From Candidatus Peregrinibacteria bacterium (GTDB taxonomy: Bacteria; Patescibacteriota; Gracilibacteria; UBA1369; UBA12473), in assembly GCA_018659585.1 (NCBI GenBank), contig JABJMC010000026.1, positions 1-34,622 of the forward strand: a stretch of DNA of 34,622 nucleotides, written 5' to 3'. A program made the translations under genes and the position numbers. Every line of letters begins with the position of its first letter. Within the stretch, counting starts at the first letter, position 1. Positions 27,053-34,622 of this stretch are shown here, piece after piece. The notes under the pieces were generated by a model. It saw nothing but the letters and a program-made list of their open reading frames with translations, did no database searches and had not been told where the DNA came from.

Positions 27053-27505
27053 ATGGAGGAAATCATTAGCGAAACTCTAAAACCGCTTCTAGAATTAATG
27101 CACATTCCTTTTACAAGGATTGATGTTGAGGCTCAAGAAGACAATCAATATCGTATTAATATTGAAGCCCCAGATCCTAAAGATCTAATTGGTTATCACG
27201 GGGGAACTCTTTATGCGATTCAACATCTTTTAAAAATTCTTCTTTCCAAAAAAATCGATCAAGCCTTTTCTATCAATTTAGATATTGATAATTACCGCAA
27301 ACGCCAAGAAGAAAATGTCATTAACATTACCGAACAAAAAATCGATCAAATTAGGAAAGACAGTACTTCTCGCAAGCTCCCACCCATGTCTCCTTATTTC
27401 CGTCGTGTTGTTCACCTTTATTTAGCTCAGCCTGAATTCGAAGACATTACAACTTATAGCGAAGGTACTGGCGACCACCGTGCAGTGGTGATCTCTATGG
27501 TATGA
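27053..27505 (+). CDS. jag: KH/R3H RNA-binding protein Jag (KhpB)
   Basis: 150 aa. A KH-like domain with DPKDLIGYHGGTLYAIQHLL (about 42-61) is followed by an R3H domain with KLPPMSPYFRRVVHLYLA and the C-terminal GTGDHRAVVIS. The Jag-N domain found in longer homologues is missing. KhpB proteins bind many RNAs and affect cell division and elongation in Gram-positives. The stop TGA overlaps the next ATG (ATGA). A 51-base gap after yidC holds no clear terminator. Confidence 0.93.
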   Translation: MEEIISETLKPLLELMHIPFTRIDVEAQEDNQYRINIEAPDPKDLIGYHGGTLYAIQHLLKILLSKKIDQAFSINLDIDNYRKRQEENVINITEQKIDQIRKDSTSRKLPPMSPYFRRVVHLYLAQPEFEDITTYSEGTGDHRAVVISMV

Positions 27506-28506
27506 AAAAACTAATTACTGTCATTATTGGGTTATCAATCTTTCTGCCTAGTGCAGTGGTTTTTGCAACTGAAGAAATAGAACCAATCACTGTAACCGAT
27601 GCCACAGCAGAGGTATCAATCGAAATTGAAACTGAATCCATCTTTTCTGATCTTTCCGAAAACAATGAATATTATCCGGCGATTTTAGATTTATATGAAC
27701 GCGGCATTGTTGAAGGTTACGATGATGGTACTTTCCGCGCTTACGATCCCATTAACCGGGTCGAAACACTCAAAATCATTATGATGTATTTTGAAATCGA
27801 AGAATTAATTCCTACCGAAACAACCGAAGAAGTCATACTTAATTTTAGCGACATTCAAACCGGAGCTTGGTATGAATTCACTCTAAAATCTGCTTACAGC
27901 AACGGAATCATTGATGGCTATCCAGATGGCACCTTTAAACCAGCTAATACCGTAAACTTAGCCGAAGCACTAAAAATTGTTTCTCAGTCCGTGCCTTTTA
28001 GTTTTATCGAAAAATACACTATTGAAATTGATCCCGCTCTAGATGTGCCCGCTGATAGTTGGTACGCAGGTTATGTTTTTCACGCTTTAGAAGAAGGTGC
28101 GGTTTATTTAGATGCCGAAGGAAATTTAAATCCAGACCAGGATGTAACGCGCGGCCAATTAGCAGATATTTTGTATCGGTTTGAAAACGACGAATATTTT
28201 TCTGGCCAAGTTTCGTATGGTAACGCAACCTATTACGCTGATATGTTTGAAGGCCGCGGTACCGCGTCTGGAGAGGTATTTCAACAAGCATTATTCACCG
28301 CGGCCCACCTAACCCTACCCTTTGGCACTTATGTCCGCGTTACCCACCAACACACCGGCGAAACCGCAGTAGTCAAAGTAAATGATCGCGGCCCTTATTC
28401 CGATCACGCCATTATTGACCTAACCTCTACGGCCTTCGAATCCATTGGCTCACTTGGTTCCGGCGTCATCCCGGTCAAAGTTGAAATTATCTATCCAGAG
28501 GAGTAA
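27502..28506 (+). CDS. Secreted SLH-domain RlpA-like protein
   Basis: 334 aa. A signal peptide (about 1-22, ending VVFA) leads into three SLH repeats (about 48-95, 113-160, 175-225), recognised by YERGIVEGYDDGTFRAYDP and SNGIIDGYPDGTFKPANT. These usually anchor proteins to secondary cell-wall polymer. The last ~100 residues are an RlpA/double-psi beta-barrel domain: GNATYYADMFEGRGTASGE, TAAHLTLPFGTYVRV and VKVNDRGPY, with the conserved Asp in NDRGP. RlpA-type domains cleave or bind peptidoglycan strands, often at division sites. Start overlaps the jag stop by 4 bases and a DivIC-like gene follows 9 bases later, consistent with a cell-wall remodelling role. Confidence 0.9.
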   Translation: MKKLITVIIGLSIFLPSAVVFATEEIEPITVTDATAEVSIEIETESIFSDLSENNEYYPAILDLYERGIVEGYDDGTFRAYDPINRVETLKIIMMYFEIEELIPTETTEEVILNFSDIQTGAWYEFTLKSAYSNGIIDGYPDGTFKPANTVNLAEALKIVSQSVPFSFIEKYTIEIDPALDVPADSWYAGYVFHALEEGAVYLDAEGNLNPDQDVTRGQLADILYRFENDEYFSGQVSYGNATYYADMFEGRGTASGEVFQQALFTAAHLTLPFGTYVRVTHQHTGETAVVKVNDRGPYSDHAIIDLTSTAFESIGSLGSGVIPVKVEIIYPEE

Positions 28507-32478: not shown

Positions 32479-32495
32479 AACCTGAATAACAGGTT
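32479..32495. promoter_or_regulatory. Inverted repeat touching the -35 box (possible operator)
   Basis: AACCTG (32479-32484) and CAGGTT (32490-32495) are perfect inverted halves around AATAA, four bases past the serA stop. The right half overlaps the first two bases of the -35 hexamer of the dockerin gene. It could be an operator, or a weak serA terminator, although no T-run follows on the plus strand. Confidence 0.4.
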
Positions 32496-32522
32496 GAAAA
32501 AAACATCAAAATCCGGTATAAT
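32494..32522 (+). promoter_or_regulatory. Promoter for the dockerin/cohesin operon
   Basis: -35 TTGAAA (32494-32499), 17-nt spacer and a perfect -10 TATAAT (32517-32522), the best promoter in the window. It decides the start of the next gene: the in-frame TTG at 32494 is part of the -35 box, so the true start is the ATG at 32548, about 19 bases after the expected transcription start. Confidence 0.75.
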
Positions 32523-32547: not shown

Positions 32548-33168
32548 ATGTTTTCACTCAAAAAACGCCTCATTGCCGCTTTCATAAGTGTTATTACCTT
32601 AGTTTCTTTTACAAATTTCACTAATACAGTTTACGCCAGCTCCCTCACCACAATTGTAGAAATTGTTATTAGTGATGGGTTCTTAGGCACCATTAGCATT
32701 AAGGCTCTCCCTGAAAAACGTGTCTCTGTTCTTGGAGGAAACCTAGGAACATTAATGCGAGTTCGCTTTACCGACCCTGATACTGACGACCAATTACTAG
32801 AAACTTCCTACACCTCTAGTTCTTTCGGACTAACAACCAGCAATGTTGATATTTCCACCCTTACACCCAATGAATATCATATTTTTGCTAAAGGACGCTC
32901 CCATCTCACCCGAAAAATGTCAAACGTTAACTTAACCACCGACACAACCAATATCGACTTTTCATATGGTGACACTGAATATCTTTACGCTGGTGATGTA
33001 AATGGCACTATTTTTGGTGACGATATTGTTAACGCCATTGATTTATCCATCCTTATTAACGACTTAGATTCTTTTGATTTAAGAACTGATTTAAATCGAG
33101 ACAACACTGTTAATGCGCTCGATCTTTCTATTTTAATTACTAACCTAGACAAAGAAGGCGATGCTTAA
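32548..33168 (+). CDS. Secreted dockerin-domain protein
   Basis: 206 aa from ATG 32548. A signal peptide (about 1-30, ending VYAS) is followed by a beta-rich domain of about 100 residues that I do not recognise, resembling a carbohydrate-binding or carboxypeptidase-regulatory fold. The C-terminal ~60 residues are a type I-like dockerin with two calcium loops: GDVNGTIFGDDIVNAIDLSI, where the loop carries a ~4-residue insertion, and TDLNRDNTVNALDLSI, a regular loop. Dockerins bind cohesins, and the next gene, overlapping by 8 bases, encodes a cohesin. This suggests the pair assembles outside the cell. Confidence 0.87.
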   Translation: MFSLKKRLIAAFISVITLVSFTNFTNTVYASSLTTIVEIVISDGFLGTISIKALPEKRVSVLGGNLGTLMRVRFTDPDTDDQLLETSYTSSSFGLTTSNVDISTLTPNEYHIFAKGRSHLTRKMSNVNLTTDTTNIDFSYGDTEYLYAGDVNGTIFGDDIVNAIDLSILINDLDSFDLRTDLNRDNTVNALDLSILITNLDKEGDA

Positions 33169-34622
33169 AAAAATTCTCACAATAAGTTTGCTTCTAAGTT
33201 TTCTAACGACGCTCTTGCCGCCGTTAAGCATCCCCGTAGCCAAAGCTGCGGTGACTCCACCAGCCTTTAGCCTGTATCCAACTTCTGGCGATTACTATGA
33301 AGCCTGTGAAACTATTGACGTTGATATTCTTATTCATACCAACAACACCAATACTGACTCGGCCAATATTATTATTGGCTACGATGACACTAAAGTAGAA
33401 GTCCAAGACGATGATGGTGGAGTAGGAGGAATCCAAATTACTACCGGAAGTTCTTATGACAACCACGCCTCTTACACTGTAGACGAAGATGACGATGAAA
33501 TTCTCTTAACCGGCTATAATACAGTTTCTCCATTTAATAGTGGTGCTAGTTACACCACTTTTGGATCTTTTACTCTAAACCCCCAAAGCACTGGCACCGC
33601 TAATTTAACCATTGATTTCACTCCTGGTGAAACAGTTGATTCTAATATCGCAGAAGCTGTTACTAGTGATGACATTTTAAATGCCGTTGAAAACGCCAGC
33701 TATAATTTATTAGCTGATTCTACGGCACCTTACACTAGTGATTTAAATCCTGCGAATAGCGCCTCTGGCGTCGCCATAAGCAGCAATGTGGTCCTTAGAT
33801 TCAAAGATGATGAATGTGGCGCTGATATTGACACTTTAACTGTCACTGTTGATGGCACTGCCTACACCAAAGCAGGGCCCAATACTTTCTCTTATTCTGG
33901 AACTTCTAGCAATTATCTAATCACTATTAATCCCGCGTCTAATTTTGGTTACGATGAAACTATCAATGTTTCAGTTGCCGCCGATGATATAGAAGGAAAC
34001 CCTTTAACACAGGCCTATAGCTTTACTACTATTGCCGACACCACGGACCCGACTATTTCTAATCGAAATCCTGCGTCTGGGGCCACTAATATTCTAAAAA
34101 ACACTAATGTTGGCTTCCGTGTTTCTGATACTGAAACTGGAGTTGATATCGACACTGTTTCCGCCACAGTTGACGGCGTTGTTTATACCAAAGCAGGACC
34201 TAACACTTTCTCCTACACTGGGACCACCGCCGCTTACGACATCACTATAAATCCAGCCTCTGATTTTACGAAAGGGGCAACCATTAATGTGGCTATTGAC
34301 GCCGATGACTTAGCCAACACTCCTAACAGTATGAGCACTGTAAATTATTCATTTTCACTAGACTCTACCCCGCCCACAATCTCTGGAAGAAATCCAGCTA
34401 ATAGCGCTACTAATATTCTAAAATCAACCAATGTTGTTTTCACAATTTCTGATGCAAATACCAATGTAGATTTAAGCACTGTTTCAGCTACTGTTGATAG
34501 CGTAGAATACACCGAATCTGGCCCTAACACTTTTTCTTATACTGGCAGTGGATCAAGTTATGAAATCACTGTTAATCCAGCCTCTGATTTCACAACCGGA
34601 GCAACTATAAATGTTTCTATTG
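33161..34622 (+). CDS. Secreted cohesin protein with Ig-like repeats (partial)
   Basis: Open to the window end; 487 codons visible, 3' end missing. The ATG at 33161 lies inside the 3' end of the dockerin gene (ATGCTTAA, 8-base overlap). A signal peptide (about 1-28) precedes a cohesin-like domain at about 29-183: FSLYPTSGDYYEACETIDVD, ANIIIGYDDTKVEV, ILLTGYNT and a final DDILNAVENASYNLL. It then has Ig-like (Big_5/SbsA-type) repeats of 107-108 residues from residue 185. The architecture is a surface scaffold or adhesin, with the anchor presumably beyond the window. Confidence 0.88.
   Translation, partial: MLKKILTISLLLSFLTTLLPPLSIPVAKAAVTPPAFSLYPTSGDYYEACETIDVDILIHTNNTNTDSANIIIGYDDTKVEVQDDDGGVGGIQITTGSSYDNHASYTVDEDDDEILLTGYNTVSPFNSGASYTTFGSFTLNPQSTGTANLTIDFTPGETVDSNIAEAVTSDDILNAVENASYNLLADSTAPYTSDLNPANSASGVAISSNVVLRFKDDECGADIDTLTVTVDGTAYTKAGPNTFSYSGTSSNYLITINPASNFGYDETINVSVAADDIEGNPLTQAYSFTTIADTTDPTISNRNPASGATNILKNTNVGFRVSDTETGVDIDTVSATVDGVVYTKAGPNTFSYTGTTAAYDITINPASDFTKGATINVAIDADDLANTPNSMSTVNYSFSLDSTPPTISGRNPANSATNILKSTNVVFTISDANTNVDLSTVSATVDSVEYTESGPNTFSYTGSGSSYEITVNPASDFTTGATINVSI
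33713..34622 (+). repeat. Tandem ~321-bp repeats encoding Ig-like domains
   Basis: Three units: 33713-34033 (107 codons), 34034-34357 (108 codons) and 34358 to the window end (incomplete). Each begins D-[ST]-T-x-P and repeats NPA..A, TVDG/TVDS, GPNTFSYTG and INPAS/VNPAS. Similarity is visible at nucleotide level, especially around the GPNTFSY segment, which suggests fairly recent duplication. More units probably follow. Confidence 0.85.

Follow-up and report, generated by a model that had tools for sequence, protein, structure and literature searches.

Side-by-side genes for an X-dockerin and a cohesin-like protein in Candidatus Peregrinibacteria probably encode an enzyme-free surface complex

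At the 3' end of the window, as the whole analysed stretch of 34622 b is termed here, two neighbouring genes were identified to encode a secreted X-dockerin protein and a secreted cohesin-like protein with Ig-like repeats, and it is considered likely that their products form an enzyme-free one-to-one surface complex in which the X-dockerin pairs with the cohesin of an anchored Ig-stalk. The first gene would yield a small secreted X-dockerin, while the second would yield a stalk of Ig-repeats which is held by the wall or the membrane and carries the cohesin at its outer, N-terminal end. The X-dockerin is suggested to plug into the cohesin of the neighbouring gene, which would place the X domain at the tip of the stalk, where it may be presented as an adhesive or layer-building head; plug and socket would probably join on the cell surface. 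This proposal builds on the domains of both proteins, on the conserved order and linkage of their genes, on the co-variation of both domains and on chain loci in relatives, from which we infer mutual binding, an SLH or transmembrane anchor at the missing 3' end, the adhesive or layer-building head and with it any adhesive role of the pair.

The window is a complete contig of a 1.41 Mb genome (49 contigs) from an uncultured bacterium of small size, hence the cohesin-like gene, which starts with the ATG at 33161 and stays open for 487 aa until the contig ends (33161..34622, plus strand), lacks its 3' end. The upstream XDoc gene (32548..33168, plus strand) codes for a secreted protein of 206 aa, in which a signal peptide is followed by an X-module-like domain and by a dockerin at the C-terminus, and its stop overlaps the start of the cohesin-like gene by 8 bases (ATGCTTAA, 33161..33168, plus strand), which bears out the original prediction of neighbouring dockerin and cohesin-type genes with such an overlap. 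The translational coupling which had also been claimed is plausible given the overlap, but an overlap was found in just 8 of 35 related pairs, the gap being 0-30 bases in 12, 31-200 bases in 13 and larger in 2, counts for which the start codon nearest to the upstream stop was taken and which are biased to short gaps. Upstream of the pair, a sigma-70-like promoter (TTGAAA-17-TATAAT, 32494..32522, plus strand) was identified by its match to the consensus only (11 of 12 positions). Its supposed rank as best promoter in the window depends on spacing, as a scan of the window revealed a minus strand site (TTGATA-16-TATAAT, 19519-19492) with equally many matches, and promoter-like sites were as numerous in the window as in shuffled sequence. 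A TTG start at 32494 was discarded since it lies inside the -35 hexamer. The 5' neighbours resemble serine synthesis genes (HAD phosphatase, class-V aminotransferase, 2-hydroxyacid dehydrogenase) and apparently have no relation to the pair. An NCBIfam search returned nothing above cut-off. Farther upstream, a gene at 27502-28506, itself downstream of genes for the ribonuclease P protein and the 60 kDa inner membrane protein and of a KH/R3H gene, encodes SLH domains and a lytic-transglycosylase (DPBB) domain.

Relatives were compared by means of two profiles, A5 for the X-dockerin and A6 for the cohesin-like domain, both of which include the window, so that the window's own A5 and A6 scores prove nothing. 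A1 took in 12 of the 14 first places; L015 and L016 entered no profile, L011, L014 and L018 were absent from the subsequent ones and L035 was added to A6.

Judged by its sequence, the XDoc protein is little beyond a signal peptide, an X-like domain and a dockerin. The signal peptide (about 30 residues, ending VYA, 32548..32637, plus strand) was recognised by eye, as was that of the cohesin-like protein (29 residues, ending AKA, 33161..33247, plus strand), in agreement with the predicted secretion of both products. The dockerin (32989..33147, plus strand) comprises two repeats and reaches 27.9-28.2 bits with PF00404 (Dockerin type I), whose curated Pfam cut-off is 22.9 bits, hence the dockerin assignment holds even at the lower value of 27.9. 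Canonical dockerin calcium loops possess 12 residues. Compared with these, the first loop of the XDoc protein (DVNGTIFGDDIVNAID, 32995..33042, plus strand) carries a 4-residue insertion, while the second (DLNRDNTVNALD, 33088..33123, plus strand) is of canonical length; insertions of 2 residues were found at the identical place of the first loop in many relatives. Pfam identified no domain besides the dockerin, and the ~100 residues preceding it are conserved together with the dockerin in relatives (alignment A5), whereby the columns P-E-K-R, K and H-L are invariant. This region was assigned as an X-module-like beta domain (32689..32988, plus strand, motif PEKR...KGRSHLT) from the columns of alignment A5, the profile A5 and the structural model. 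When compared to solved structures, profile A5, which spans X part and dockerin, matched the X-dockerin dyads 4wi0 (E 4e-6) and 4u3s (E 1.1e-5), whereby the match to 4wi0_B covers profile positions 45-147 of 156 and both domains. The profile was needed for this, as the XDoc sequence by itself revealed no X-dockerin dyad among the solved structures. The model shows beta strands in the X part (pLDDT about 55-88 by block) and a poor dockerin part, and structure searches with it gave no secure fold match: Foldseek returned nothing at E<=0.001 and listed 4wi0_B third (E 0.018), with the dockerin part poorly modelled. Given its X-module-like part ahead of the dockerin, the small 206-aa protein is considered an X-dockerin dyad, the type of module by which cellulosomes are anchored. 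A partner as small as this (<=245 residues) was found in 11 of the 35 related pairs, the window's counted in; viral contigs contained no X-dockerin relative.

The second protein carries, behind its signal peptide, a cohesin-like domain (33263..33709, plus strand; profile A6, with the window included, and fold matches) and three bacterial Ig-like repeats of the Big_5 type, the third being incomplete (33716..34621, plus strand; PF13205, 60.2 bits in 3 stretches), so that the predicted Ig-like repeats were recovered by Pfam. The domain had originally been called a cohesin and is termed cohesin-like here because PF00963 (cohesin) does not match the protein encoded here at E<=1; nor was any PF00963 match found in the genome at E<=10. 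The cohesin assignment was however strengthened by relatives and by fold. Two members of the A6 profile family exceed the PF00963 cut-off of 24.1, namely L024 (30.1 bits) and L177 (27.1 bits); A6 matches the G315 protein, which is the L177 protein, at E 6.5e-47 and also the G014 protein, which is the one at L024. The model of the domain is modest (pLDDT 53.5, pTM 0.50), and Foldseek searches with this modest model returned 10 matches at E<=0.001, all 10 of them cohesins (best 2.3e-5). In VIA-align, ranks 1-18 were occupied by cohesins, the top one with Z 10.3 and 129 residues aligned at rmsd 3.4, and unrelated Ig-like integrin domains followed after these with Z up to 9.5. Profile A6 matched the solved cohesins 1g1k and 2vn5 at just E 0.25-0.29, and single-sequence searches of solved structures gave nothing useful for either the cohesin or the X-dockerin half. 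As the model matches solved cohesins best, it suggests that the window's domain possesses the beta-sandwich fold of cohesins.

How the cohesin-like protein may be held on the surface was derived from its relatives. A hydrophobic segment within the last 90 residues was recognised by eye in 25 of 35 cohesin proteins, the window's protein being incomplete; in the other 10 no such C-terminal segment was found at the chosen threshold, three of these being cut or interrupted. The two X-dockerins nearest to that of the window by sequence are found among L094, L095 and L096, and at these three loci the second protein combines the cohesin-like domain with Big_5, SLH and a C-terminal hydrophobic segment. 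By analogy, SLH and a C-terminal hydrophobic segment are expected to form the missing end of the window's cohesin-like gene. Surface assembly, as brought forward in the original prediction, is thus supported by the transmembrane tail of most complete relatives and by the SLH domains of the nearest architectures. Searching the genome with the L095 cohesin protein yielded many SLH proteins, none of which read as the contig-edge remainder of the gene; the genome encodes many further SLH proteins. In Gram-positive bacteria, WxL and WxL-interacting proteins (WxLIP) form surface clusters. Similar to these, WxLIP domains above cut-off adjoin the pair at two loci, L102 and L104, a further pointer to the cell wall; unlike in these clusters, WxL itself was found below cut-off only, and the surroundings of the window's pair revealed no WxL context. 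Small secreted and WxL-interacting-like proteins adjoin the pair at L098-L104, L184 and L187, reaching the cut-off in L102 and L104 only. As the plug proteins of relatives bear DUF4215 or TSP3 repeats, the plug was considered the variable part of the complex.

Patescibacteria are often epibionts, and an unlikely alternative, which the original prediction had also offered, assumes that the pair is a device for host attachment, in which a molecule on the partner cell would serve as ligand either for the X-dockerin at the tip or for a cohesin left empty. This would be consistent with the dockerin-domain protein SEML1_0315, which is reported as essential in the cultured epibiont Southlakia epibionticum (PMC10633639), whose authors guess that such dockerin proteins target host glycans; the accessible parts of this paper do not name a partner, and its main text lacks the word cohesin. 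The genome analysed here, however, comes without a known host.

The preferred reading of an enzyme-free surface complex is supported by the recurrence of the pair. Relatives were sought in 288 genomes of the class and 379 of the phylum, with some genomes common to both samples, and, where named, comprise Candidatus Gracilibacteria, Peregrinibacteria and other Patescibacteria. Within the class, A6 gave 54 matches in 37 genomes and A5 gave 47 in 31, both halves being present in 28 genomes; the cohesin-like half occurred without an X-dockerin match in 9 of the 37, the reverse in 3 of the 31. An X-dockerin was located upstream on the same strand within 3 kb for 33 of the 54 cohesin-like matches (25 within 700 b), the remaining 21 had no X-dockerin on their contig and no other arrangement was seen. 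For the phylum, 150 A6 matches in 96 genomes and 110 A5 matches in 69 were obtained, with both halves in 53. Here, 52 of the 110 X-dockerin matches are followed by a cohesin-like match on the same strand within 3 kb (40 within 700 b, 12 more up to 3 kb), for 3 it lies upstream at up to 700 b, for 11 at a greater distance, and 44 lack one on their contig; a cohesin-like match on the opposite strand within 3 kb was found for 0 of the 110. Among the 24 strongest X-dockerin matches, 22 have the cohesin downstream within 3 kb, and for the exceptions G483 and G355 a wider profile identified a cohesin-like neighbour (E 7.7e-16 and 9.2e-16). As the pair recurs across the phylum, its occurrence in the window is more than chance, and the pairs of relatives, with the same gene order, apparently recur without a cellulose-digesting machine. 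Neither half was found in G001, a genome of the same family. One-to-one pairing is not general, since 16 of the 29 pair genomes have two to eight PF00404 matches at E<=0.1 and 13 have at most one.

Next to order and linkage, the two domains co-vary. For 35 pairs, which include G543:C10 with an internal stop in its dockerin sequence read as X, the domain distances correlate with r 0.649, a value reached by 0 of 2000 shuffles. The true pairing ranks first among 128 within-genome swaps; after addition of four chain pairs, G483 and G355 (41 pairs, r 0.702), it surpasses every other one of the 10368 pairings possible within genomes (mean 0.355), whereby these re-pairings are not independent as 5 of the 7 multi-pair genomes belong to one lineage (f22). 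Linkage and co-variation would equally follow from inheritance or duplication of the pair as a block. In the chain loci L105, L106, L108 and L109 an X-dockerin is followed by a protein with cohesin and X-dockerin and this by a cohesin with a membrane tail, which in L106 lies on an adjacent frame behind an N run and is present directly in L105, L108 and L109. The simplest reading of these sequences would be that each chain dockerin pairs with the cohesin encoded by the gene that follows, and the gene order may therefore equal the assembly order from tip to anchor. Against this background, it appears quite improbable that the two products are no partners at all, i.e., an Ig-like surface protein which happens to be encoded beside an unrelated calcium-binding protein: the miss of the cohesin by Pfam and the mutual similarity of Ig-like folds, as seen with the integrin domains, would fit, whereas the strict order that recurs, the co-variation of true pairs, the chain loci and those relatives that exceed the Pfam cohesin cut-off argue against it.

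The original prediction had further noted a cellulosome-like pairing without any glycoside hydrolase, and a search of the whole genome supported the absence of a cellulosome context. PF00404 has a single match, the XDoc protein, and as this protein is without catalytic domain, no enzyme cargo was identified. The cohesin-like domain likewise occurs once, protein and profile searches giving no paralogue, with the end of the gene missing. One dockerin match and one cohesin-like domain led us to reject a cellulosome, which would comprise dockerin-bearing enzymes, of which none was identified in the genome, and a scaffoldin with several cohesins, further ones being conceivable in the missing part of the gene. 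A cellulosome-like scaffold recruiting enzymes, to which the identical connector domains and a weak alpha/beta-hydrolase-like region below cut-off in the cohesin proteins of L019 and L020 would point, is thus highly improbable given the single cohesin-like domain and the single dockerin match, on a protein without catalytic domain, in a genome that is 96.7% complete. The L019 (7826-11599) and L020 (5123-8296) proteins exceed 1000 residues, and their weak hydrolase-like region precedes a membrane segment.

Among known systems, the enzyme-free complex suggested here resembles the cellulosomal dyad of X-dockerin and type II cohesin (ScaA-ScaB, 4wi0, 4u3s), with which it shares the unit of X-module and dockerin, as identified by profile, the cohesin on the anchoring side and, in its closest relatives, SLH domains within the cohesin proteins. 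It differs from this dyad in that enzymes and a multi-cohesin scaffoldin are absent, that the X-dockerin is a free-standing protein of 206 aa, that the genes of the pair lie side by side and that an insertion enlarges the first calcium loop. It seems that the half of the connector which anchors cellulosomes is employed here without enzymes. In cellulosomes, adaptor scaffoldins composed of cohesin and dockerin link the outer part to the anchor. The chain loci resemble these adaptors; in contrast to them, no enzymes were recognised on the L105 chain proteins and assembly seemingly follows gene order. Noncellulosomal cohesins and dockerins are known from archaea and bacteria, as stated in the accessible parts of PMC9012536 and PMC10066038, the former also proposing that ANME archaea attach proteins to their surface by means of proteins which combine S-layer and dockerin domains. 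The noncellulosomal cohesin of Archaeoglobus fulgidus (2xdh; fold match with Z 9.3, rmsd 3.5, 125 residues) shares the use outside of cellulose degradation, but the archaeal systems (Archaeoglobus, ANME) belong to another domain of life, and the accessible parts of these sources describe no conserved X-dockerin/cohesin gene pair there. Within the accessible literature on dockerins and cohesins of Patescibacteria, mostly non-subscription papers, no report on this gene pair was found.

To our knowledge, most surface proteins of Patescibacteria lack an assignment. A conserved plug and socket would mean that both halves become known at once and that gene order predicts binding partners, and the pair family would supply many orthogonal connector pairs. 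A far-reaching extension, which we regard as doubtful, assumes an enzyme-free cohesin/X-dockerin system that is ancient and widespread in Patescibacteria, with the order of genes mirroring that of assembly, from tip via adaptors to anchor, and with the essential Southlakia dockerin serving as its plug half, required for host contact.

Some individual loci deserve mention. L192 (2758-6365) encodes two consecutive cohesin-plus-dockerin proteins and then a cohesin-match protein with a C-terminal membrane segment, and L024 (6656-7816), located in a genome without X-dockerin match, combines a cohesin above cut-off with Big_1/Invasin_D3. In-frame TGA codons were found in the cohesin-like matches of G161, G135, G193, G131, G205, G237, G173, G033, G119, G209, G011 and G097, as expected where lineages read TGA as an amino acid.
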